44,483 nt of DNA. Source: a virus. Shown here in pieces: positions 17,590 to 42,785 of the stretch. Location of the stretch: positions 1-44,483 of the IMG/VR virus record IMGVR_UViG_3300023180_006444; one strand, 5' to 3'. Below the pieces are notes generated by a model. That model ran no database searches and had not been told where the DNA came from. It saw nothing but the letters and a program-made list of their open reading frames with translations. Positions within the stretch are counted from its first letter, which is position 1; every line of letters starts with the position of its first letter. The position numbers were made by a program, and so were the translations under genes.

Positions 17590-18501
17590 GTGGAAAGGAT
17601 TAGGAATGTTGTTAAATGTTGGTAAATTTGGGTTCATTGCTTTGTAGTGTTGTGGATAATGTTTCAACCACTCCGATATCTCGCCACTTGATCTAAAAAA
17701 TTGATTGCACATTGGGACAATAGTATATTCGTAATTTTTTTCTAACCATGCTGAAATAAATGCTTGTTCCACCACATCTAGATCTTTGATGTTGATATCT
17801 ATGTTGTCACCTATGGCTTTTATTACATCGAGTGCTCTATCTTTTGTATCTATAAAATTCAAACCAGTAGCAAAATTATCAAACACGTTTTCATCTGATA
17901 TATCTAAATTTAATTTCAAATATTCGTTTGCCTGCTTCAGTGTCATGAAAAATTTTGTCTTGTCCCAAAAACTGCTGACAGGAAAACAAAAAGTTTTTCT
18001 TGGTAGGTTGTTCCTAAGTTTGGTATCAAGCTCAATAAATCCGTTCTTGTCAGGGTCTAGGAAAGACAGTTTGTAAAAATCACGCATTATGAATTTAGGG
18101 ACTGTGCTTTTTGCTAGATCTAGGTTATAGTATTTTTTGAATTTATTTGCCCAACGGAAGTTCTTTAAAAACTCCGTGTTCGGTTGTACGTCATTCTTAG
18201 TGACATCAACTTTGTGATCTCCTGCTCTCATAGTAACCCATCTTTCAAGATACAACAAATCTTCTTTCTCTATTGTTATAAGGATGTGAGGTTCGTTTTC
18301 GTTTTCGAAAAAAGGTTCAGATGTGTTGGGATGATAACGATACACTAGATCCGAATAATTTAAATCAATGTGAGATGTGTTATTTTTTGTAAATGGTGTC
18401 GCAATAATTTTAGGGGTGTGCTTACAGAATTTGTCTATGCAGAAACGTAGGAAGTTGCCATGAGTACCTCCTTGGAAGGCGATATTCACTCTGTCTTTCA
18501 T
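17569..18501 (-). CDS. Conserved protein with P-loop-like N-terminus, 310 aa (paralog of 23219-24187)
   Basis: It begins MKDRVNIAFQGGTHGNFLRFCIDKF. The GGTHGNFLR loop after a beta strand resembles nucleotide or PAPS-binding loops of sulfotransferases, but the match is weak. A later paired motif is KFIMRDFYKLSFLDPDKNG. The end KAMNPNLPTFNNIPNPFHLW is nearly identical to the paralog at 23219-24187. The two copies flank the queE, amidinotransferase and yhhQ block. The start overlaps the QueE-like stop (TAATG). A sulfotransferase-like role is a guess. Confidence 0.65.
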   Translation of the reverse strand: MKDRVNIAFQGGTHGNFLRFCIDKFCKHTPKIIATPFTKNNTSHIDLNYSDLVYRYHPNTSEPFFENENEPHILITIEKEDLLYLERWVTMRAGDHKVDVTKNDVQPNTEFLKNFRWANKFKKYYNLDLAKSTVPKFIMRDFYKLSFLDPDKNGFIELDTKLRNNLPRKTFCFPVSSFWDKTKFFMTLKQANEYLKLNLDISDENVFDNFATGLNFIDTKDRALDVIKAIGDNIDINIKDLDVVEQAFISAWLEKNYEYTIVPMCNQFFRSSGEISEWLKHYPQHYKAMNPNLPTFNNIPNPFHLWKSKK

Positions 18502-19400
18502 TATGTTCCTATGGCGTTACCAAATAGATATACGTGTACCCTTGCTGATACATTGTATCCTCTCTTGAATGCTTCTTCCGCCACCTGTCCTGCTGTTGTG
18601 GTCTGTTCTTCTTCCCGTGCACCTGTTGGCATTATCCATACTGGCCAGTCAATTCCTGCTTCTCTGAATTTCCTGACTGTGTTTTCTAGTTCTTCCCATT
18701 CTCGTCTACTTGCACCCACGACGAACTTCAGTTGTCCTCTATCACTACACTCTGCGTATTCCTTCACGTTATCGGGCTTGATTGCTTTTTCAGTTTTCTC
18801 GCCGGACACTGTAAACAGTTTGGGGCTCACACTAAAAAATATCTCTTCAGGAGTGTCCTTGACCCATTGCTTGAATGGTTCTGTTAGTTTCTGTGTGCCA
18901 TTTGTCTCAAATGTCATCGAACTTGGCAAGTTAGCTCTCTGTTCTAGTGACTTGTATATGCCCATACTTGCGGCCTGACCTGTTACCATCAACGGTTCAC
19001 CGCCCGTGAAACACAGGTGTTGATGTTGCCTCGAGTTAGGATGTAGGAACAAGCCATTTTGGTTAGTGTCTGTCTTCAGTATGTCTACTATCTTGTCTGC
19101 TAGTACTGTGGGCGTTTCATATCCCATCAACTTCTTGAACTTCTTTGCCCAGGTGTAACTGGAATCACAACCTTTCTCCCACACCGGCAAGTCCTCCACC
19201 CTCTTGACACTGTCAACGTCAAAGTCCTCGAATGGAAGTTCGTATGTGTTTGGGTCTGTGGGGTCTTTCTGTCCAAATCCATTGCACTGCAAATTGCAAA
19301 GGAAGAATCTTATCCAGGCTGTTGGTGTGCCTGTGTAGTGTCCCTCACCTTGTATGCTGTGGAATATCTCTGAATAGTAATATTTCTTTTCTACTTCCAT
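18501..19400 (-). CDS. queE: QueE-like 7-carboxy-7-deazaguanine synthase (radical SAM)
   Basis: A 299-residue enzyme expected to convert 6-carboxy-tetrahydropterin to 7-carboxy-7-deazaguanine. It opens with YYSEIFHSIQGEGHYTGTPTAWIRFFLC, the QueE substrate loop. The cluster motif is split: Cys35 and Cys39 (CNLQC) are followed only after 38 residues by Cys78 in GCDSSYTW, which matches the third Cys of the usual WCDSxxTW. FTGGEPL and FETNGTQ follow, as in QueE. I recall the same insertion in marine T4-like phages. It lies between the DUF6614-like gene (10-base overlap) and a P-loop-like protein. With FolE and DpdA in the window, a DNA-modification role is likely. Confidence 0.82.
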   Translation of the reverse strand: MEVEKKYYYSEIFHSIQGEGHYTGTPTAWIRFFLCNLQCNGFGQKDPTDPNTYELPFEDFDVDSVKRVEDLPVWEKGCDSSYTWAKKFKKLMGYETPTVLADKIVDILKTDTNQNGLFLHPNSRQHQHLCFTGGEPLMVTGQAASMGIYKSLEQRANLPSSMTFETNGTQKLTEPFKQWVKDTPEEIFFSVSPKLFTVSGEKTEKAIKPDNVKEYAECSDRGQLKFVVGASRREWEELENTVRKFREAGIDWPVWIMPTGAREEEQTTTAGQVAEEAFKRGYNVSARVHVYLFGNAIGT

Positions 19401-19813
19401 ATTTCCGGATCTACCCTTTTTGTCGCTTCGACTATTTCTTTAATTGTAAACTGTTTGTTGTTTTCTGTCAACTTGGGTTTATTTAGATTATCTGGAAAAT
19501 CTCTGTAAAGAAAGTGTTGTATCGTCTCGGTATCAACAAATTGATTGAATCCCACGTGTGTTTTATCAACACCTTTGTCTGCTATGGTAACATCCATTGC
19601 GTCATCAAGTTGTTGCATTGATTCAAACTCCATGTCTATCCTGAATTCCGGCAAGTCCATTGATCTGAAACCCAACTTCATCCTAGTGATCCTGTAGGTG
19701 ATCATTTTATCGTGTTGTACAAGTTTATCAAGAAACAATTTCATTTTAGCAACGAAATCGTGTGCCGAGATGTTTTCTTTATGGTCCGCGTATATCGTGT
19801 ATATGTTAGCCAA
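19391..19813 (-). CDS. DUF6614-like protein, 140 aa
   Basis: The frame starts at TTG 19813, overlapping the amidinotransferase stop by 8 bases. It reads NIYTIYADHKENISAHDF, then YRITRMKLGFRSMDLPEFRIDMEFESMQQLDDA. This matches my memory of DUF6614, a small family seen in marine and soil bacteria with the YRITRxKLGF pattern. Position before QueE could suggest QueD, but the zinc His pattern of that family is absent. A truncated second copy of the 5' end lies at 21276-21398, after the other amidinotransferase. The pairing repeated twice suggests the two proteins work together. Confidence 0.65.
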   Translation of the reverse strand: MANIYTIYADHKENISAHDFVAKMKLFLDKLVQHDKMITYRITRMKLGFRSMDLPEFRIDMEFESMQQLDDAMDVTIADKGVDKTHVGFNQFVDTETIQHFLYRDFPDNLNKPKLTENNKQFTIKEIVEATKRVDPEIWK

Positions 19814-20828
19814 AGTAATCCTCTTGTGTGCCTTCTCTGTACAAATCCTGTGTTATGCAGTGTACTCCACCATCCCAGAAATACCTGTGCCTAAAGTTGA
19901 AAATTATAGGCTCAACTTTGTGCTTCTTGAAATGGTCAAACACTTCCTTGTTGTAATTATTGCATATTATTGTATTCTCATTTATTGACAACATATTGAC
20001 ATCGAACACAGTCTCTTCAACATACCCTACCCAGTCATCCAGCCATAAATTTACAAAGTTTATAAGATCATTGTTGTCTTCCTCATTTTCTATCCACCAC
20101 CTACCTCCGACTTTTTGTTTAATCTTAAGGAAACCGTCTACTTTCTTCCAGCTCTGCTCGGGTAGGTATAACACGTCCCATCCGGGGAATTCTTTTTCAT
20201 AGTCCTGCACGTCCTTTAACGTCACAATACAACCTGGTTTTACTAAGCAGAAAGATCCATCTGAATGATAACCTCTTTGTGATGTGTGTACTCTGAAGTT
20301 CTCTGCCTCCAGTCGACTCTTCATATAATTGATACGTTCAATGCACTGCTGTTTGGTGCCCTTGCCGTGCCGGGTTCTTTGTGGCCTGCAGTCCCAGAAT
20401 ATGTCCTTGCCGCACCTTGCCATGAAAGCAGTACTAGTTAGACACTCTTCGTAGTCCCAATTGTTGATGTACACATTTTTTTTGTCGATTTGTTTTAGTA
20501 CACTGCCATAGAAATTGGTTGGATGTGTTGCATAAAAAGTTTCGCCAATCACAGCAAAATGATCTCTAGGACATACAGGTGGCCGACCATAATAGTCCGC
20601 ATCGAATTTCGATTCATCAAATTCGGGCCTGTATGTTTTTACATCTGCCTTCGTGAGGATATCTATTAGTGCTTGGTAATCTTCTTCGGTTTCGTCTGCG
20701 ATTCTTCTCAACGGATCAGATATCTTAGTGTTTTTGATATTACGTTTGAAGAAATCATTACTGAAATTTTTTCCTACGAGACAGTGTTTCAGAGGATGAA
20801 AGGAGGCATATCCTTTTATAGGGATCAT
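19806..20828 (-). CDS. Glycine amidinotransferase-like enzyme, copy 1
   Basis: A 340-residue member of the amidinotransferase/dimethylargininase superfamily, which moves the amidino group of arginine to an amine or hydrolyses guanidino compounds. RPPVCPRDH (82-90), GYHSDGSF with likely catalytic His188, and GGVHCITQDLYREG with nucleophile Cys324 match the family layout. It is close in sequence to copy 2 at 21391-22413. It follows a cupin gene by one base and precedes the DUF6614-like gene with an overlap. The acceptor is unknown; glycine is only the family default. A cytosolic enzyme, as no signal or membrane segment is seen. Confidence 0.82.
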   Translation of the reverse strand: MIPIKGYASFHPLKHCLVGKNFSNDFFKRNIKNTKISDPLRRIADETEEDYQALIDILTKADVKTYRPEFDESKFDADYYGRPPVCPRDHFAVIGETFYATHPTNFYGSVLKQIDKKNVYINNWDYEECLTSTAFMARCGKDIFWDCRPQRTRHGKGTKQQCIERINYMKSRLEAENFRVHTSQRGYHSDGSFCLVKPGCIVTLKDVQDYEKEFPGWDVLYLPEQSWKKVDGFLKIKQKVGGRWWIENEEDNNDLINFVNLWLDDWVGYVEETVFDVNMLSINENTIICNNYNKEVFDHFKKHKVEPIIFNFRHRYFWDGGVHCITQDLYREGTQEDYFG

Positions 20829-21279: not shown

Positions 21280-21398
21280 TAGGGGAGCATTTTCTTTTGT
21301 AAAACTAATTTGTCAAGGAACAATTTCATTTTGCCAACAAATTCGTAGGCAGTGGTATTGTCCTTATGATCTGCATATATTGTGTAAACGTTAGCCAA
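21276..21398 (-). pseudogene. Truncated DUF6614-like gene (relic of tandem duplication)
   Basis: From TTG 21398 the frame reads MANVYTIYADHKDNTTAYEF, then VGKMKLFLDKL, and stops after 40 residues. This matches the first 32 residues of the 140-residue protein at 19391-19813, including the same TTG start overlapping an amidinotransferase stop. After LDKL the match is lost, and the TGA lies inside the TTGACA of the next promoter. It is best explained as the left-over end of a tandem duplication. A short peptide could still be made. Confidence 0.8.
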
Positions 21399-22413
21399 AA
21401 TAGTCCTCCATGGTTCCTTCTCTGTAAAGGTCCTGTGTTATGCAGTGTATTCCACCATCCCAGAAGTACCTATGTCTGAAGTTGAATATTATGGGTTCCA
21501 CCTTATGTTTTTTCAAAAAATCAAAAATATCTTTATTGTAGTTGTTACATATTATTGTGTTCTCGTCCAGCGATAGCATGTTGACATCAAAAACAGTTTC
21601 CTCGACAAATCCAACCCAATCATTTAGCCAGGTGTTAATGAAATCAATCAATTGGTCGTTGTGCTCTTCACCTTTGAGCCACCATCGACCGCCAACTTTG
21701 TTTTTTATTTCTAAAAAAGGATCTACTTTTCTAAAACTTTGATCTGGAACATATAAGACCTCCCAATTTGGAAACATTTCAGAATAATCTTGGATGTCGT
21801 ATAAGGTTACTATGCAACCTGGTTTAACAACACAAAAGGATCCATCATTATGATATCCTCTGCGTGACACGTGAACACGAAACCCCTCTTCTATCCATTT
21901 ATTCTTATAATGGTTCACAAAACCTGCAGTGTCTTTTCCTTCCTTCCATGCGACATCCCAAAAAAGATCTTTGCCTACACGTGTGATCGTGGCTGTGCTT
22001 ACTGAGTCGTTTGGTAAATCTTTTCCATAACACGTTCTTATTTCAATTTGCTTTCTATCAATTTGTTTAAGAACGTCTGCGTAACCTTGTGTACCATTGG
22101 ATACTGTATATAATTTTTCACCTATGACAGCGAAATGGTCTCTAGGATTGACAGGCGGTCTATTAATGTTTTTAAGTGATCCATATTTTTCTATGTCTAG
22201 AAAACTTCTGTGAGTTACTACACCAGCATCTTTAAGTATTTTTTCGAGATTTACATAATCTTCTTCGGTTTCCTCGGAAATTCTTTTCAAAGGATCCATT
22301 ATTTTATCGTTATTGTATATAGGAAGGTCACTGAACCATTGCTCTTTGAATCCTGATCCTACCCAACAGTGTTTGAGAGGATGGAAGGTAGCATATCCTT
22401 TAATTGGAATCAT
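21391..22413 (-). CDS. Glycine amidinotransferase-like enzyme, copy 2
   Basis: A 340-residue paralog of copy 1, the same length and with both ends nearly identical (MIPIKGYATFHPLKHC and DLYREGTMEDYFG). Family residues are kept: NPRDHFAVIG, GYHNDGSF for the catalytic His and GGIHCITQD for the nucleophile Cys. The middle (about 60-180) is more diverged, which suggests a changed acceptor rather than a dead copy. It has its own promoter (22433-22462) and is followed by the truncated DUF6614-like relic. A+T content is higher than in copy 1. Confidence 0.82.
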   Translation of the reverse strand: MIPIKGYATFHPLKHCWVGSGFKEQWFSDLPIYNNDKIMDPLKRISEETEEDYVNLEKILKDAGVVTHRSFLDIEKYGSLKNINRPPVNPRDHFAVIGEKLYTVSNGTQGYADVLKQIDRKQIEIRTCYGKDLPNDSVSTATITRVGKDLFWDVAWKEGKDTAGFVNHYKNKWIEEGFRVHVSRRGYHNDGSFCVVKPGCIVTLYDIQDYSEMFPNWEVLYVPDQSFRKVDPFLEIKNKVGGRWWLKGEEHNDQLIDFINTWLNDWVGFVEETVFDVNMLSLDENTIICNNYNKDIFDFLKKHKVEPIIFNFRHRYFWDGGIHCITQDLYREGTMEDYFG

Positions 22414-22491: not shown

Positions 22492-23142
22492 CTATTTCTT
22501 CTTCTTGCCAATTACTTGCAGTCTTTTCAATAGTATACCATATGCTGGTAAGAATACTATCAATCCAACAACAATCTTGGTCAAAGTGTTGTTTTGGGCA
22601 ACAACGTGCCAGTTTGCACCAATCCACGATAGGTTACCTTCTGCATCCAACGATCCTGCGAACGCCACATAAAAGAATGAATATGTATCAATTATGTTTG
22701 CCGCAATAGTTGATAATGCCGGTGCCGCCCACCAATTGTCAGATCTTTCCCTGATCGCTTGGAAAACGTACACGTCAAGCATGGTACCGATTGCGTATGC
22801 TGTACCTGATGCGAATCCAACCCTGTATGCGTGTGGATCACCCAGTGCCAACAGTACCAGTACTGATGCCACGATAGCCGGAATAATCGCCATTGCAACA
22901 ACGGCCCTTCCTGCTTCTTTGCCAACCAACCTGACCGTCAAGTCAGTTGCGACCACCACGATCGGGAATGTGAATGCCGCCGCCGCAAGTGGGAAAGATC
23001 CAAACAATGGAAGGTCCGCGCCTGGGAACAGATCAAATCTGATCGTGACTAGATAATTCGACACAGCGATCACTATCGTGTGTAGGATAACTAGATTTCT
23101 TACAAGTGTCTTGTCGACACCCGCTAGTAGTGATTTAAACAT
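22492..23142 (-). CDS. yhhQ: YhhQ-family queuosine precursor transporter
   Basis: A 216-residue integral membrane protein with about six transmembrane segments, matching the YhhQ/VUT (DUF165) family, known in bacteria to import preQ0 and preQ1. Recognisable parts are the N-terminal helix with VIAVSNYLVTIRF, the segment FTFPIVVVATDLTVRLVGKEAGR, and ASGTAYAIGTMLDVYVFQAIRER, the family hallmark. The C-terminus is basic (KKKK). It has a strong promoter and AAGGAGG before the ATG. In a phage with FolE, QueE-like and DpdA proteins, it probably supplies 7-deazaguanine precursor for DNA modification by raising uptake in the host inner membrane. Confidence 0.85.
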   Translation of the reverse strand: MFKSLLAGVDKTLVRNLVILHTIVIAVSNYLVTIRFDLFPGADLPLFGSFPLAAAAFTFPIVVVATDLTVRLVGKEAGRAVVAMAIIPAIVASVLVLLALGDPHAYRVGFASGTAYAIGTMLDVYVFQAIRERSDNWWAAPALSTIAANIIDTYSFFYVAFAGSLDAEGNLSWIGANWHVVAQNNTLTKIVVGLIVFLPAYGILLKRLQVIGKKKK

Positions 23143-26238: not shown

Positions 26239-26539
26239 TCTCTTTTTCCTTTTGTTCACACATATGTTTCACGTTCTTGTAGTGATCCCATGCGTCCTGT
26301 AGTGCAGGGTATTTTGATCTTAATTCTTCTTCGTTGTCGAATGTCAATCCGTCTACCGTGAAACCTGTTGAGACTGTGTTGACATTGAGATTATCAAAGT
26401 CGTCGTCGAGGTCCGCGAAGGAGTACGTGAAATCTCCAGTGTTCTGTATTCCATCTGAACTGATTGAACCCATTTCTATGTTGTCTGACTGCATGTTTGC
26501 CTGTTCCTTTTTGATTTGTGCTTTAGTTTTCTTAGCCAT
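26228..26539 (-). CDS. Hypothetical acidic protein, 103 aa
   Basis: A basic start (MAKKTKAQIKKEQ) is followed by a long acidic and polar part (SFADLDDDFDNLNVNTVSTGFTVDG) and a short helix-rich end (NEEELRSKYPALQDAWDHYKNVKHM). It looks partly disordered. It overlaps FolE by 8 bases and the GMP reductase by 11, so it is made with them. I do not recognise it. A small regulator or adaptor is possible but unsupported. Confidence 0.6.
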   Translation of the reverse strand: MAKKTKAQIKKEQANMQSDNIEMGSISSDGIQNTGDFTYSFADLDDDFDNLNVNTVSTGFTVDGLTFDNEEELRSKYPALQDAWDHYKNVKHMCEQKEKENEN

Positions 26540-27245
26540 GGCCCTTCATGCTCATACAGATTTTATAGAATTCATCTCTGGTTGCTGGATCGTCTTTGAA
26601 TGCACCCAACATGATCGCTGTGGTCATGTCTGACTCGTGTTCTCTTACTCCCCTGTGTGTCATGCAGTGATGTTCCGCTTTCACCACAACTGCAAGATTC
26701 TCAGTCTTGGCATATTTTTTTAATTCGTCTGCGATCTGTGTTGTCATCTCTTCTTGTATCTGCGGTCTCTCCACTATGTGATGCACGATCCTGTTGAATT
26801 TGCTCAATCCAATCACTTCGCCATTTGGAATGATGCCAACCCATGCCCGGCCAACTATGTTTTGGAAGTGGTGGGCACACGTGGATCTTATTGATATTGG
26901 ACCACTGGTATACATGCTCTTGTAACCCATGTTGGGGAAACTTGTTACCCTCGGTGCTGGCTTGAATCTTCCACCAAATGTTTCTCTGATGTACATTTTC
27001 GCCACACGTTTCGCAGTCTCGTTTGTGTTGTGATCGTTTTCCGTGTCAATCACAAGGCTGTCTAACACACCCTGTAGTTTTTCTTGTACCTCTGCCTGTA
27101 ACAGATCCATCTCGCCATCTTCTATGAATTCAGAGATGTTGTCATTGGAATGGAATCTCTTGCCCGCCTTCTTGATTCTTTCTTTTATCTTTTTACTAAT
27201 TGGCGTTTCAGGCATCCAACTATCTTTTAAAATATCTTCACTCAT
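26532..27245 (-). CDS. folE: GTP cyclohydrolase I
   Basis: A 237-residue FolE, which converts GTP to 7,8-dihydroneopterin triphosphate. This is the first step of both folate and 7-deazaguanine synthesis. Zinc ligands are Cys123 and His126 in STCAHHF and Cys194 in EHHCMTHRGV. PNGEVIGLSKFNRIV and AEHHCMTHRGVREHES are near the family consensus. The first 45 residues are an extra N-terminal extension. It is led by a strong promoter and CAGGAG. With QueD-like and QueE-like proteins it probably supplies base modification. Confidence 0.93.
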   Translation of the reverse strand: MSEDILKDSWMPETPISKKIKERIKKAGKRFHSNDNISEFIEDGEMDLLQAEVQEKLQGVLDSLVIDTENDHNTNETAKRVAKMYIRETFGGRFKPAPRVTSFPNMGYKSMYTSGPISIRSTCAHHFQNIVGRAWVGIIPNGEVIGLSKFNRIVHHIVERPQIQEEMTTQIADELKKYAKTENLAVVVKAEHHCMTHRGVREHESDMTTAIMLGAFKDDPATRDEFYKICMSMKGHG

Positions 27246-37099: not shown

Positions 37100-38548
37100 T
37101 TACTCGAATAAAGAACTGAAATTGTTTGTGCCCTTCCCACCACCTGTGGCCCTGGCCCATCTGTTTCCCCGGATGTCTGCTAGATAACTCGATGCGTTTG
37201 AGATCACATCCATTGGCTTCTCGCTAGTGAACACTTCTTCAACCAGTGTGTTGAAATACAATATGTTCCTTGGAACGTATATGCTTGGCTCATCAGTCTT
37301 GTCACTTGCTTTTGTTTTTCTCCAATGTTTCACTTCTGGTCTGTATTTCCTTGATTCTATGTCGTTGAGATCGTTTGCGATCTGTATGGCCCTGATCTGG
37401 TTGTATACGTTATGGGCCATCATCAGCACATAACTGAAACTGTCCCAACTGGTTGCTCCTACTTTGCCATTCTTGTTTAGGTCTTTCTCGCCATACCAAC
37501 ACACATCTTTCATCTTCAATCTACGTCCAATGCCACTGTCAAAAGGAAACTGTATGTCTGATCCTTTCAATGTTTTGTCATCTGGAGCCTTGTCCATCAC
37601 GAACGACCATCTGTCTGGAGTGAATGAGTTGTGCGTGTAGACCAATCCATTAGCAGTTGATAAGAATGCTGATGCACTGTCAAAACTTATTGTGAAGTTT
37701 GGGTTTATGTGTTTCCTAACCTGTCTCTGTACCTGTGTGAGATAGCAACCCCAATCCATCTGTGATGTACCCAGTACGTGCATCCAGTCCTTGCCGTCCA
37801 GTTTCTTCTCATCTCTCATTATGATCAGACGTTTAAGCATGACTTCCATATCACACATGTTGATACCACCCATAGCCCATCCTTCAAATTCAAAGTCTTT
37901 GACTGCGTCATACCATATCTGTGCTGTGTTCCAGTCGTCACCCTGTAACACGTTCAATAGTTTTGTCTGTCCCAGTCTGTTCTTCTGGAAGAACTTGTTG
38001 TTATATATGGTACCGTCCAGTGTGTCTTGGAAACTGTTCAATCCTGTTTTAGGTCTGTTGAGATCATCTGCCGCCCACGTGGGTACATCCAATGTCATGG
38101 CCCAATCGCTTGTGAGTTCTAGCCAGTTTAGTATGTCAGATCTCACTTTGTTTGCCTTGTTACCCTCGAAATCTTTCCAATCGAATTTTATTACACCTTT
38201 TCCTATCTGGTATCCGCCTGAGTCACCTACTATAGTAGAAAATTCTCTATCTCTGTTCACGAACATGTGATCTCTGTCGCCAACCTTTTCCATGTCCAGG
38301 CAGGCGTGTCCCGCCGAGTACAGTGCTGTGGGGTATGTGAACATTCCTTCTTTTGGATTGATGAAGTTAAGCCCTTCCACTCCATTCTCAAAGCCTTTTG
38401 GAATCCTGTCTTCGGAGATGTGTTTGCCTCCTGAAACTCTCTGTTTGCTGATAAACGTGTTGTAGAAGTTAGATATAGCAGGCAAGAACACCGCGAAGTC
38501 TCTGCTCAACTCCCCTAGATGCTCTTGCTTACTATTATCTGTCGTCAT
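37100..38548 (-). CDS. dpdA: DpdA-like DNA guanine transglycosylase (TGT fold)
   Basis: A 482-residue relative of tRNA-guanine transglycosylase. VGDSGGYQIGKG (107-118) carries the base-recognition Asp109. MTLDVPTWAADD, GWAMGGINMCDME (with GG at 227-228) and HVLGTSQMDWGCYL follow TGT order. ISFDSASAF holds Asp290, the likely nucleophile. The usual TGT zinc Cys cluster is not evident, which favours DpdA over TGT acting on tRNA. In known phages DpdA exchanges guanine in DNA for a 7-deazaguanine base, protecting it from restriction. Its ATG overlaps the clamp stop (TAATG), so it would be made with the replication clamp. Confidence 0.85.
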   Translation of the reverse strand: MTTDNSKQEHLGELSRDFAVFLPAISNFYNTFISKQRVSGGKHISEDRIPKGFENGVEGLNFINPKEGMFTYPTALYSAGHACLDMEKVGDRDHMFVNRDREFSTIVGDSGGYQIGKGVIKFDWKDFEGNKANKVRSDILNWLELTSDWAMTLDVPTWAADDLNRPKTGLNSFQDTLDGTIYNNKFFQKNRLGQTKLLNVLQGDDWNTAQIWYDAVKDFEFEGWAMGGINMCDMEVMLKRLIIMRDEKKLDGKDWMHVLGTSQMDWGCYLTQVQRQVRKHINPNFTISFDSASAFLSTANGLVYTHNSFTPDRWSFVMDKAPDDKTLKGSDIQFPFDSGIGRRLKMKDVCWYGEKDLNKNGKVGATSWDSFSYVLMMAHNVYNQIRAIQIANDLNDIESRKYRPEVKHWRKTKASDKTDEPSIYVPRNILYFNTLVEEVFTSEKPMDVISNASSYLADIRGNRWARATGGGKGTNNFSSLFE

Positions 38549-39285
38549 TATTGCGCCTGTGCTGGTATGATGTATTGATACTTGCCCAATCCTGAATCAA
38601 CAGAGACCTGCATCGCACCCTCGTTGGAGAAGTGTAATGTGACCTTTGCCGAGTCTGATAGTTTAAGTATTTGTAGCACCTGTCCTACCGGCCAACTCCA
38701 TCCTTTGTTAAGTGTTCCCTTAACATCAGTTGCAAATACAAACTCACCACCATGTGATGCCTGGTCACCGAAAGTGAAAATCAAGTTCCCATCTTCGGTC
38801 CTCACAACGAATGAGTTGTGCTCTGTGTTTGCAGTTGCTTGGAAGTTGAATCTTTGCACACTTGCCACGCTAGGCTCGATCTCAACGTCCCACTTGACAC
38901 CCTTGAACTTCACGGTCTTAAGTTTCTCGTTGATGATCTCAGCGTTCATGAATCTGTAGTCATTCTTGAAGTCACCCTTTTCATTCTCGAAATGGATTCC
39001 TGTGGGAATGGTCGCACCGTTTCTCTCACCGGACAACACAGTAATGTTCGCCTTCTCCTTGTACTCCGGACACTTCAGGTGTATGTCTAGTTTGCCCATC
39101 TGTGGCATACCGAACGTACCCGTCATCTCCGTTTGTGGCTTGTGGAAAGACCCCTGTAGGATCACAGATCTGTCTTCGGCCATGGAATCGATTGTAGTTT
39201 CCTTATCGTCTCCAGTGATCTTAACAAGATCCAAGAATCCCAGTCCATGCGTATGTTTAACGATGTCTTTTAAGATGTCTATCAT
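38548..39285 (-). CDS. 45: Sliding clamp, gp45-like
   Basis: A 245-residue processivity clamp that holds the gp43-type polymerase on DNA and, in T4, also activates late transcription. The sequence follows marine T4-like clamps: LGFLDLVKITGDDKETTIDSMAEDRSVI, FGMPQMGKLDIHLKCPEY, FKNDYRFMNAEIINEKLKTVKFKGVKWDV and the end AMQVSVDSGLGKYQYIIPAQ. T4 gp45 has 228 residues. It is coupled to DpdA downstream, an unusual partner; in T4 the clamp-loader genes follow. A weak promoter may lie at 39295-39323. Confidence 0.9.
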   Translation of the reverse strand: MIDILKDIVKHTHGLGFLDLVKITGDDKETTIDSMAEDRSVILQGSFHKPQTEMTGTFGMPQMGKLDIHLKCPEYKEKANITVLSGERNGATIPTGIHFENEKGDFKNDYRFMNAEIINEKLKTVKFKGVKWDVEIEPSVASVQRFNFQATANTEHNSFVVRTEDGNLIFTFGDQASHGGEFVFATDVKGTLNKGWSWPVGQVLQILKLSDSAKVTLHFSNEGAMQVSVDSGLGKYQYIIPAQAQ

Positions 39286-39294
39286 AATGTTCTT

Positions 39295-39323
39295 ATTGTA
39301 TATGATATTTAGGTCTTAGTCTA
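39295..39323 (-). promoter_or_regulatory. Possible promoter TAGACT-N17-TACAAT before the clamp gene
   Basis: On the minus strand TAGACT (39323-39318) and TACAAT (39300-39295) are 17 bases apart, each with two or fewer mismatches to consensus. CCTAAATA, like a T4 late box, lies between them. The leader would be only a few bases. Confidence 0.35.
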
Positions 39324-40113
39324 GTGTTATTTCACTAACTTTGTACACTACAGGATTTTGTTTACCAGGTTTTTTGAATATTGCGTAGTTGGCCCCGGGT
39401 CTGAACTGATTCATTTCCACAACCTCATATCCCTCGTCCTTGATCATCTGTGTCATGGCTGTCTTGGTGTTGTAGTTCCAATAACCGTTTTTTGCTTGTA
39501 AAAGATCATGGTCATAATGGCAGTCTGCGTATTGTATGAACACGTATCCTCCAGGAATCAACACTCGTTTGATGTCATGTAGATACTGTTGCACATGCTG
39601 TTGTGTAAAGAACACAAACGTGTCCCAACTGAAAACCAAACTACAACTTCCTTGGGGTACGTTCGAGCATTCGGTGTTCCGGGTGATGCAAAATTTTAGG
39701 TATTTCTGATGCTGACTTGGAAATTTTGCACGTATACTTTTCTCAACCTGGGGCAAGACATCTAGGAAAAAATTCAATCTCCATGCCCTGAAATCCATAG
39801 AGAACATGCCAAGTCCCGGACCTATCTCCAAACTGTTGTAGATGTTTGATCTAGAGAATTGGAAGATCTTGGTCTGCACCATTCTACTCAACCATGCGTC
39901 CACTATAGGTTTTTTAATCTTTTGATCGAGATCCCTCAGGAACCATTCTGGAGTCTTGTCCATCCTGTCTATTATTTCACTGTTGTTGGCGTCAACGGCC
40001 AACTCTAGATCCTTTAAAATTTTCAAATTGGAGTCGATCAACTCCTGTAGGTCCTCTTTCTTGACTCGTTCCAGTTTCTCTATTAACAATTTAATCTCTT
40101 CAATGCTTAACAT
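39316..40113 (-). CDS. SAM-dependent methyltransferase (class I), 265 aa
   Basis: A helical N-terminus (about 1-80) precedes a Rossmann-like methyltransferase domain. Motif I is LEIGPGLGMFSMDF (95-108), the acidic residue follows in FFLDVLPQV, and SLVFSWDTFVFF with IKRVLIPGGYVFIQY are motifs IV and VI. This type acts on small molecules, sugars or lipids more often than on DNA; no DPPY/NPPY DNA-methylase motif is seen. It lies between the polymerase and the clamp gene. Substrate unknown. Confidence 0.8.
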   Translation of the reverse strand: MLSIEEIKLLIEKLERVKKEDLQELIDSNLKILKDLELAVDANNSEIIDRMDKTPEWFLRDLDQKIKKPIVDAWLSRMVQTKIFQFSRSNIYNSLEIGPGLGMFSMDFRAWRLNFFLDVLPQVEKSIRAKFPSQHQKYLKFCITRNTECSNVPQGSCSLVFSWDTFVFFTQQHVQQYLHDIKRVLIPGGYVFIQYADCHYDHDLLQAKNGYWNYNTKTAMTQMIKDEGYEVVEMNQFRPGANYAIFKKPGKQNPVVYKVSEITLD

Positions 40114-40121
40114 ATGACTAT

Positions 40122-42785
40122 TTAAAATTCAAACAGTTTGTTGAATGTGTTTGTGGTCTCCGTTGACTGCACGTCCCATCCTAGAACACCTATGAGGTTG
40201 TCGATCTTCTGATCCAGTATCGTTGCTTCCATGGCATCACCGTCAAACGGCAGTTCCTTGAACCATTCAGGTATACGCATCTCATCCACGGGATATGCGA
40301 TACTTGTGTAGCCCAATGGATTCTGTTTCAGTTTACACACGATCACTTTCGCACCGTCAGTGATTGGCATACTGTATTTGTCGCCATACATCTCCCTGCA
40401 CCGGTTCCAGTTCATGCTGGCCCTCACGTGGCCCGGCATGTTTGCTCTCCCGGCCTTTTCCTCGGCCGCAGTGTACTTGGTCATGTTGTTGGCCCTCTTG
40501 GGAGATCCCTTCTCCCATCCTGGCCTGGATTTGAACTCTGATCTGAATTGGCTGATTTTTTCTAGTACTTCTTTCTCGCCCTTGCCTTGTAGAACCATGT
40601 ATAGGAGATCACTCAAGAAGTCCTGCACGAAAACAGGTGTGTCTGATCTTTTGAGATCCAGTCCCATAGCCTTCATCTTGCCATCCTTGCCGTCGACATC
40701 CGCACGTTTGCCTTCCTTGTCGTAGTACAGTACAGCATATCTCTTCTTTGTGATGAACAGACCTTTGGACGCCACAAGTTCTCTGCCCGCCGCTATGACT
40801 TCTCCACGTGTGCTCGGACAATGGAAGCCCTTGGTCATGAATGATTTGAAAGATCCGTTGACCTCGTCTGCTATCCTGTCGTACAGTGCCACGACGGAGT
40901 CTTTGGTCCATGGTATAACACCTTCATTGATCTCTTTTTGTAATGTCTTGTATGCCGAGAAGTAAACGGAGTCTGTGTCTCCATACACAACACTCTCGCC
41001 TTTATGATCGTACTTGCCCGCCACGATCTCGTTGACTTTGCTGGCCATGTGTTTGGTGATACACCTGCCTGTGAGTGTCACACTCTGTCCGATCCTGATG
41101 TCAAAGAATCTACAGCCTGGATTCAGGATCGCACCATACAGACTGTTTAGATTAATTTTCTTTACAAGTTGCCTCTTGTCCCAGTACTCTCTTTCAATCT
41201 CGTTGTCTCCACACTCACGCATCTTCTTCTGCATTTCCTGTCTCTCTGCGTACCAACGTTTCAATAAACCTGGGATGATTGCTTCATACTCGTATGTGAA
41301 TATGGTACCATTGGCACTCAACATCCATTTGTTGTTGCCATCAAATATGATCTCATACAGTTGTGCGGCACTCATACGCACACTGGTCTTGTCTTCCCAG
41401 TCCACGATTATCTCGGTGCCCTTCTCTTGATTCATCACTGCCTGGTACTCCCAACTGCCAAACTGGCTGTCCCACGCCGCCGCGAATGATTTCTTGGCGT
41501 GTTTGGCCCTGTTGATCTCTGCTGAAGTTATCACAGGTCTGATCTGACCCACTATGGTCTCCGGACCCATGTTAAGTGCCCTAATCACACTCGGATATAG
41601 TGAGTTTATGTCAACAGACCCTATCCAGTCGTGTATTCCCTTTTGTGGGGTCGCCACGTGGGCTCCTGCCGCCGGCTGATTCTCTTCACCGTCTTTCTTG
41701 TACTTCCTGGCTGGTACCTGCATTCCACGTCTGTGTGTTTCATTCACGATTGCCTGTTCCGTGACCGCTACTGCACCCATCGTTGTCTGTAGTAACACAG
41801 TGTTCTGGTGTGCTATCTCATTGGCCAGTTCTATGAACTTCAGTTTCTTCTCCAGTTTGGCCAACAGTGCAGTGTCCTGCCTGTTGTATTCTATGAACAA
41901 TCCAAAGTCGTTCTTGTACAAGTTATCCAGCGATCCTTCGTATACAGTTTTCCTCTCATCTAACTCATGCTCGCCTATTGCGTCCAGTCTGAAACTGTGT
42001 CTTTCCTCATATGTGTATTTCCTGTATAGTTCCAACAGGTCCAAGTGTACACGTCCCACGAGATCAAAACTCAACTGCTCCCTGCCATACTTCTCGAATA
42101 CCCTCTTTCTAGGCTTTTCACCCCAGAAACAAAGACGTCTTGTGTCGTCTGAACTTAATACTTTTTGTATCCTGCCCACGGTGTATGGGATATCATATCC
42201 CTCACTGTTCCATCCACTTAAGATGTCTGCGTCTTGTACCAATTCCAGGAATGCGTCTAGCATGTCCTTCTCCTTCTCGAACAACATGGTGTTGTCAAAC
42301 CTTTTCGTCAGCTCTTTGGCATCCGCCATGCTGATGGTCTTGGGAGGTACTGCGAAAGTGACCAGTTGGTCCGTCCAGCTCATGTAACAACTTATGGCAG
42401 TTATGGGCATGAACGGATCATCTGTCGTTGAATAACCTCGATCGGGATCGAAGTCCACTTCAATATCAAAAAACATAACATTTAACTTGGGCGTCTCCTT
42501 GCCCAAGTAGTTCTCTTCCAAACACCTGAACACGGGATTGATGTCATTCTCGTACAGTTGTTTGTTGGATCTGATCCTCTGTTCTTTTATGAATTCCTTG
42601 TGTGTGGCACACTGCACCCGCTGTAAAGGTGCACCAGTCATTGACCTGTGTTTGCCCCTGGCGTCCTCGTAGTAGAACACGTACCTGGCATCATACTCCG
42701 TGAATATCCTGCCCTTCTTGGGATCACGTTCTACGACGTATATCTTGTCCTCGTCCTTCTTGTATAATGCATCTATGTAACTCAT
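40122..42785 (-). CDS. 43: DNA polymerase, family B, gp43-like
   Basis: An 887-residue replicative polymerase (T4 gp43 has 898). I chose ATG 42785 (MSYIDALYKK); the longer frame from 42830 would run back into the neighbour. Exonuclease motifs: FFDIEV (Asp107, Glu109), SGWNSEGYDIPY (190-201) and YNRQDTALL (300-308). Polymerase motifs: VDINSLYPSV (Asp392), KKINLNSLYGAI (542-553) and VYGDTDSVYF (Asp603, Asp605). All catalytic residues are present, so it should replicate and proofread. The C-terminus FNKLFEF fits a clamp-binding peptide. Confidence 0.96.
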   Translation of the reverse strand: MSYIDALYKKDEDKIYVVERDPKKGRIFTEYDARYVFYYEDARGKHRSMTGAPLQRVQCATHKEFIKEQRIRSNKQLYENDINPVFRCLEENYLGKETPKLNVMFFDIEVDFDPDRGYSTTDDPFMPITAISCYMSWTDQLVTFAVPPKTISMADAKELTKRFDNTMLFEKEKDMLDAFLELVQDADILSGWNSEGYDIPYTVGRIQKVLSSDDTRRLCFWGEKPRKRVFEKYGREQLSFDLVGRVHLDLLELYRKYTYEERHSFRLDAIGEHELDERKTVYEGSLDNLYKNDFGLFIEYNRQDTALLAKLEKKLKFIELANEIAHQNTVLLQTTMGAVAVTEQAIVNETHRRGMQVPARKYKKDGEENQPAAGAHVATPQKGIHDWIGSVDINSLYPSVIRALNMGPETIVGQIRPVITSAEINRAKHAKKSFAAAWDSQFGSWEYQAVMNQEKGTEIIVDWEDKTSVRMSAAQLYEIIFDGNNKWMLSANGTIFTYEYEAIIPGLLKRWYAERQEMQKKMRECGDNEIEREYWDKRQLVKKINLNSLYGAILNPGCRFFDIRIGQSVTLTGRCITKHMASKVNEIVAGKYDHKGESVVYGDTDSVYFSAYKTLQKEINEGVIPWTKDSVVALYDRIADEVNGSFKSFMTKGFHCPSTRGEVIAAGRELVASKGLFITKKRYAVLYYDKEGKRADVDGKDGKMKAMGLDLKRSDTPVFVQDFLSDLLYMVLQGKGEKEVLEKISQFRSEFKSRPGWEKGSPKRANNMTKYTAAEEKAGRANMPGHVRASMNWNRCREMYGDKYSMPITDGAKVIVCKLKQNPLGYTSIAYPVDEMRIPEWFKELPFDGDAMEATILDQKIDNLIGVLGWDVQSTETTNTFNKLFEF

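Follow-up and report, generated by a model that had tools for sequence, protein, structure and literature searches.

A putative DNA base exchanger encoded beside a phage sliding clamp carries a polymerase-like, candidate clamp-binding peptide

Why would a phage encode a DNA base-exchange enzyme directly behind its sliding clamp? The question is raised by a virus record of 44,483 bases (IMGVR_UViG_3300023180_006444), which is analysed here as a whole, is probably a fragment, and is called the window below. On its minus strand, the final A of the clamp TAA is also the first A of the ATG of a dpdA-like gene, at position 38548: GCGCAATAATGACG. The original prediction, that the start of the DpdA-like gene overlaps the clamp stop codon in a TAATG, is thus confirmed, and both protein identities hold as well (Table 1). 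It had further argued that coupled translation would tie modification to replication, that the gene order departs from that of T4, and that DpdA may act at or near the replication fork. Combining sequence comparisons, structure models and analogies with known phage proteins, we consider it probable that the DpdA-like protein is a guanine exchanger with the fold of tRNA-guanine transglycosylases (TGT), acting on DNA and anchored on the PCNA-like clamp through a tail peptide of the polymerase type.

Table 1. Features of the window that bear on the clamp-dpdA locus (positions in the 44,483-base record).
Feature	Position	Strand	Evidence
Clamp gene, PCNA/gp45-type, 245 aa	38548..39285	-	phrog_12062; model and PCNA matches
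dpdA-like gene, 482 aa, predicted TGT-fold base exchanger	37100..38548	-	ORF, AlphaFold2 model, Foldseek, invariant residues
TAATG, clamp stop and DpdA start with one common base	38546..38550	-	sequence and relatives
Disordered DpdA C-terminal tail, residues 463-482, glycine-rich linker and peptide	37103..37162	-	pLDDT <50
Proposed clamp-binding peptide NNFSSLFE, residues 475-482	37103..37126	-	polymerase matrix, conservation, codons
Family B DNA polymerase, 902 aa	40122..42830	-	PF00136 E 1.6e-37; phrog_262 E 4.5e-196
Polymerase C-terminal peptide NTFNKLFEF, presumed clamp-binding, yardstick for the DpdA tail	40125..40151	-	
Methyltransferase-like gene between polymerase and clamp	39316..40113	-	PF13489 E 1.9e-6
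FolE-like GTP cyclohydrolase I (7-deazaguanine pathway)	26532..27245	-	PF01227 E 9.1e-47
QueE-like radical SAM protein (7-deazaguanine pathway)	18501..19400	-	phrog_2076 E 5.8e-54
Queuosine-precursor transporter, YhhQ-like	22492..23142	-	TIGR00697 88.7 bits (cut-off 50.95); PF02592

The clamp protein matches phrog_12062 (E 5.8e-39), a family that has no name in PHROGs. Its AlphaFold2 model (mean pLDDT 92.5) matches PCNA, with a Foldseek E of 6.3e-12 and a Z of 18.2 at an rmsd of 3.1 over 225 aligned positions, and by this model the protein has a PCNA-type clamp fold. The clamp member of Vibrio phage 2.275.O also matches phrog_223, DNA polymerase processivity factor, and a clamp relative is annotated as proliferating cell nuclear antigen in one phage record. 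A PDB sequence search with the clamp profile returned eight weak hits, none better than E 0.034 and all to unrelated proteins, which we took as chance; Pfam and NCBIfam named neither the clamp nor the DpdA-like protein.

The DpdA-like protein was modelled from 69 aligned sequences (mean pLDDT 89.6). All 50 Foldseek matches listed were tRNA-guanine transglycosylases, with E from 1.9e-9 and TM-scores by query of 0.37-0.43, and comparison of the model with TGT gave a Z of 20.3 and an rmsd of 4.7 over 305 aligned positions. On the strength of this model the protein has the TGT fold, with a TGT-like core at about residues 15-433. All 69 aligned DpdA sequences share D109, S110, G111, G112, Q114, D154 and D290. 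These residues include DSGG.Q, which we take to be the TGT catalytic pattern, together with the second active-site Asp; judged by its aligned residues, the protein carries that pattern. The protein-family libraries (Pfam, NCBIfam, PHROGs) gave no match and did not name the protein DpdA, a PDB sequence search with the DpdA profile returned nothing at E up to 1, and no match to PF01702 was detected in the Phosso, 2.275.O or nt-1 records. Stop-codon recoding in dpdA was considered, as a TAG lies inside 3 of 10 DpdA matches, and was rejected: this is an ordinary stop, followed by the next small gene. In window-clade relatives (L001, for example) dpdA frequently stops at a TAG that merges with the ribosome site of the following gene (TAGGAGG); the stop in the window is TAA.

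Since the window holds FolE-like, QueE-like and queuosine-precursor transporter genes, 7-deazaguanine modification of the phage DNA would be the natural reading of this gene content. Neither QueD nor QueC was identified in the part of the ORFs scanned in this probable fragment; the annotation of phage PA5oct lists one GTP cyclohydrolase, two QueD-like genes and one QueE-like gene. As described in PMC6884629, 7-deazaguanine bases are introduced into DNA by the DpdA proteins of phages 9g and CAjan and by the DpdA2 of phage nt-1, and CAjan without dpdA loses both the modification and its restriction resistance. The window protein resembles these enzymes in being TGT-related and linked to preQ0-pathway genes, a linkage that for 9g and CAjan is taken from that paper. 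A different view of the enzyme would be that it modifies tRNA and that its place beside the clamp is incidental. The fold is, after all, that of a tRNA-guanine transglycosylase, and the libraries do not call the protein DpdA; the pathway genes of the window are nevertheless like those of known phages with 7-deazaguanine DNA (PMC6884629), and the polymerase-type clamp peptide described below fits a DNA substrate. We therefore regard a tRNA-modifying enzyme as very improbable and keep to a predicted exchanger of guanine in DNA. Two similar 340-aa proteins of phrog_25854 (19806-20828 and 21391-22413 of the window) flank a cupin gene, and together they adjoin the QueE-like and transporter genes; they may belong to the base-modification pathway.

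How much can the one-base overlap tell us? When 42 genes of the window are listed by hand, 6 of the 41 pairs of neighbours overlap by exactly one base. A search of the window for tRNA genes returned none. Among relatives with a complete clamp on their piece, it is kept in all 53 whose DpdA is at least 70% identical to that of the window, and in just 6 of the 100 below 70%. Being common in the window and mostly lost at lower identity, the overlap is only weakly informative as evidence of special coupling. The argument that coupled translation ties modification to replication is thus a weak one, and we rejected translational coupling as the chief signal of this locus.

Gene order gives a different picture. 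Relatives were gathered from 80 of 107, 80 of at least 591 and 80 of at least 600 matches listed, with 13 further loci; removing 43 duplicate DpdA sequences and 22 loci without a complete DpdA left a set of 159 distinct relatives. Six of these, whose clamp is cut, broken or absent on the piece, were left out of the order counts, and homologues on bacterial contigs (L278-L288) were kept apart from all counts of relatives. For 153 distinct relatives the fetched piece includes the whole clamp gene, and in every one of them this gene lies upstream of dpdA on the same strand. The spacing is a one-base overlap in 59, a gap of up to 10 nt in 36 (two of them negative), a gap of 11-400 nt in 50 and a gap of 459-1313 nt in 8, and all relatives with a spacing other than the one-base overlap belong to the 100 below 70% identity. 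Clamp-dpdA adjacency is therefore conserved, whereas coupling by overlap is not. A nucleotide search of a phage collection with the clamp and dpdA genes gave no match, nor did viral scans with the DpdA sequences of 2.275.O and PA5oct.

The adjacency has its exceptions and its interruptions. In 11 PA5oct-type records the clamp and DpdA matches are 346 bases apart; in PA5oct itself this space holds one small gene. In Vibrio phage 2.275.O the two genes are separated by two small ORFs, one with a NUMOD3 homing-endonuclease motif, which suggests that these ORFs were inserted between genes that were formerly adjacent. In Sinorhizobium phage Phosso, by contrast, some 174 kb separate the two genes. 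The original prediction had treated a dpdA far from gene 45 as evidence against itself; such a distance occurs in Phosso and for the separate DpdA2 family of nt-1, but in none of these 153 relatives. Its contrast with T4, where the clamp-loader genes follow gp45, was right: the T4-like order 45-44-62-regA-43 is present in Vibrio phage nt-1.

Neighbouring genes need not have proteins that meet, and the locus could be no more than a compact replication module, in which overlap and adjacency serve co-expression and any likeness of the DpdA tail to the polymerase is chance or inherited noise. The frequency of one-base overlaps in the window would agree with such economy, as would the 50 gaps of 11-400 nt among the 100 more distant relatives; in six relatives examined, clamp and dpdA are separated by a small gene encoding about 120 aa (MIKGL...), for example at L119:7631-7984. 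The C-terminus of the enzyme bears on the choice between operon economy and a clamp-tethered DpdA.

The search of DpdA for a clamp-binding peptide turned up a good candidate. The last residues of the window protein are NNFSSLFE; those of the family B polymerase, whose gene lies just upstream, are NTFNKLFEF. The pairing recurs in relatives: NTFGSLFSFE in DpdA against NTFGSLFSFD in the polymerase of one locus (L114), NSFNSLFD against HFDSLFGW in PA5oct, whose DpdA is 41% identical to that of the window, and NNNDLFGW against NNTDLFDW in Vibrio phage 2.275.O, whose DpdA is 27.5% identical. The peptide sits on a linker predicted to be flexible, residues 463-482 of the model having pLDDT <50. In the window clade it either closes the protein or leaves two residues after it, and in many relatives of 50-60% identity it lies inside a longer tail (NTFGSLFS in L114, for instance). 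In the 69 aligned DpdA sequences the fixed columns are N (60), F (52), L (60, with four M) and F (66), with variable residues between them. In 57 of the 69 sequences (L128 and L145 among them) the LF peptide is succeeded by a second acidic motif, DDxxLxxLE, which is also conserved and which the window clade lacks.

The likeness was scored with a matrix made solely from 30 distinct polymerase C-terminal 8-mers, in which DpdA was not used; two off-pattern polymerase C-termini, one of them from 2.275.O, were left out. We scored with it every ORF of 60 aa or more, on either strand, in five large phage records. The top score in PA5oct (697 ORFs) belonged to DpdA, as did that in G007 (435 ORFs), where the protein is a 153-aa piece cut by the end of the stretch; among the 456 ORFs of G001 it came second, after the polymerase. 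It was outside the best 14 scores in G003 and G005, which have 587 and 442 ORFs. A score of at least 16 was reached by 25 of 42 DpdA representatives and by one of 5461 other ORFs, and 16 of the 42 scored below 14. A simpler count gave a similar result: of 49 phage DpdA representatives (85% clustering), 33 have F..[LM]F within their last 60 residues, whereas 500 shuffles averaged 1.1 and never exceeded 5, and coarser clustering gave 10 of 13 at 70%, 7 of 11 at 60% and 4 of 6 at 50%. The peptides also fit the polymerase of their own phage better than randomly paired ones, the observed mean being reached by 9 of 5000 permutations in a statistic that ignores shared ancestry.

Conservation within the window clade points the same way. 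NNFSSLF[ED] is kept in 56 of 56 distinct relatives at least 70% identical to the window DpdA. The codons of the peptide all vary across 41 nucleotide versions, and the sole amino-acid change is one E to D; this codon comparison takes only tails that match the peptide, the count of 56 all distinct relatives at or above 70%. When ORFs of at least 80 aa were surveyed across the fetched pieces, the motif recurred convincingly in no further protein family. Besides DpdA and polymerase it returned 54 ORFs of at least 80 aa at a score of 8 or more, mostly isolated; its one large group had 19 of 99 members with mixed matches, and the first member of that group is encoded opposite dpdA, on the complementary strand of L071. 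A late sigma factor was considered as a further carrier of the motif and dropped, the sigma C-terminus of PA5oct being without it. One singleton of 193 aa, encoded some 0.7 kb downstream of dpdA (L140:10227-10808), has NEFNSLFD near its C-terminus.

The peptide is not universal. It is degenerate in several clades, where only the LF core is left (NISNDLF, YGNKDLF); L256 and L270 have no LF at the peptide position, yet their clamp gene is adjacent; and in Phosso the polymerase ends in DTTFNDLFTF and DpdA in just EGLF. A polymerase-like hydrophobic/acidic peptide is thus present in the window and in most representatives, and it is degenerate or absent in some clades. DpdA homologues of 28-37% identity also occur on the bacterial contigs (Sphingomonas, Novosphingobium, Azospirillum and others). 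After leaving out 3 of 11 that have no ORF of 430-640 aa, F..[LM]F was found in none of the remaining 8, and no such clamp gene in their fetched stretches. The degenerate peptides would suit operon economy; an excess of 25 in 42 over one in 5461 background ORFs goes beyond chance, however, and noise would hardly be kept in every close relative while its codons vary, or be confined to DpdA and the polymerase among the families surveyed. Operon economy as the whole explanation is therefore unlikely.

What the tail would bind can be judged from T4. In PMC2988020, the C-termini of T4 gp43, gp55 and gp33 are described as similarly hydrophobic and acidic, as binding gp45 and as interchangeable; that of gp55 sits on a variable, divergent linker (also in PMC7892883), and the similarity of the three is not conserved throughout that phage family. 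The DpdA tail is of the same kind, a short hydrophobic/acidic C-terminal peptide on a linker. It differs in that the T4 motifs serve replication and late transcription, whereas that of DpdA would serve base modification, and in the longer acidic stretch that follows the peptide in most aligned DpdA sequences. With this second motif the tail may serve more than a single function, and since the binding reading is drawn from sequence, the peptide might be a genuine docking motif for another partner common to DpdA and polymerase, or for self-association of DpdA. We hold this to be improbable, a little more so than operon economy: the C-terminus of the T4 polymerase is described as a clamp-binding element (PMC2988020), and the conserved neighbour of dpdA is the clamp gene.

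We thus favour the clamp as the partner, and the following sequence of events can be proposed. The enzyme would exchange guanine in DNA for a 7-deazaguanine base, DNA being its presumed substrate. The C-terminal peptide of the polymerase would bind the clamp, as that of T4/RB69 gp43 does according to PMC2988020, and the peptide in the disordered tail of DpdA would dock at the same site. Docked DpdA would be held at replicating or freshly replicated DNA, where tethering may speed or localise modification behind the fork. The suggestion that DpdA acts at or near the fork therefore keeps its place on other grounds than those first offered: the polymerase-like peptide and the conserved adjacency support a DpdA near the clamp, and the overlap does not.

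Clamp-borne modification of DNA has a precedent in eukaryotes, where DNMT1 is carried by a PCNA-type clamp and methylates hemimethylated sites. It is a clamp-carried DNA modifier like the proposed DpdA, but an unrelated enzyme. A close parallel is the alpha-glucosyltransferase of T4, which co-purifies with gp45 while the beta-glucosyltransferase does not (PMC13216743, where a 2004 paper by Sommer and others is among the references). Both would be DNA-modifying phage enzymes on a clamp, by description for the glucosyltransferase and by prediction for DpdA; the T4 enzyme differs in transferring glucose onto hydroxymethylcytosine, with no base exchange. As the authors of that study conclude, the interaction with gp45 is mostly not what determines the share of alpha-glucosylation. 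By analogy, clamp binding of DpdA, if real, could affect the timing or efficiency of modification rather than its final level.

Tethering would not extend to all such enzymes. The DpdA2 gene of nt-1 is flanked by genes for a GTP cyclohydrolase and a QueC-like protein, at a distance of 26 kb from gp45, and its product has no LF tail. As it is thus unlinked to gp45 and without the peptide, clamp tethering is not general for DNA base exchangers. Profile A2 of the window DpdA family found no match in nt-1 (NC_021529) at E up to 1, and for this reason the family looks like a sequence group separate from nt-1 DpdA2, to which it may be more distantly related.

If the tether exists, the polymerase-type peptide would be a concrete mechanism by which base exchangers reach every genome copy before host nucleases do. 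It would also assign a likely function to a TGT-fold family left unnamed by the libraries, and to PA5oct proteins whose present annotation is hypothetical or structural. A bolder version, for which we would put the chances somewhat below even, is that base replacement is coupled to the replisome throughout a clade of large phages: DpdA would ride the clamp behind the polymerase, new strands would be camouflaged within moments, and the phage sliding clamp would be a general tool belt for DNA modification. The parts are of known kinds, namely a TGT-fold base exchanger, a PCNA-like clamp, a clamp-binding peptide and a clamp-bound modifying enzyme. As far as these searches reach, their combination across a large phage group is new; no report of a clamp-bound or tethered DpdA was found in the open-access literature, a body of text outside which most subscription papers and bioRxiv preprints lie.

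One further gene in 2.275.O may use the same dock. The gene after dpdA (L083:9705-10817) encodes an amidoligase-like protein (PF12224, E 1.8e-4, just under the cut-off). It has no IMG/VR relative and one distant phage relative, in phage Simon, where the match runs from query residue 46 on. The protein starts with MFNELFDFND, much like a polymerase-type peptide.
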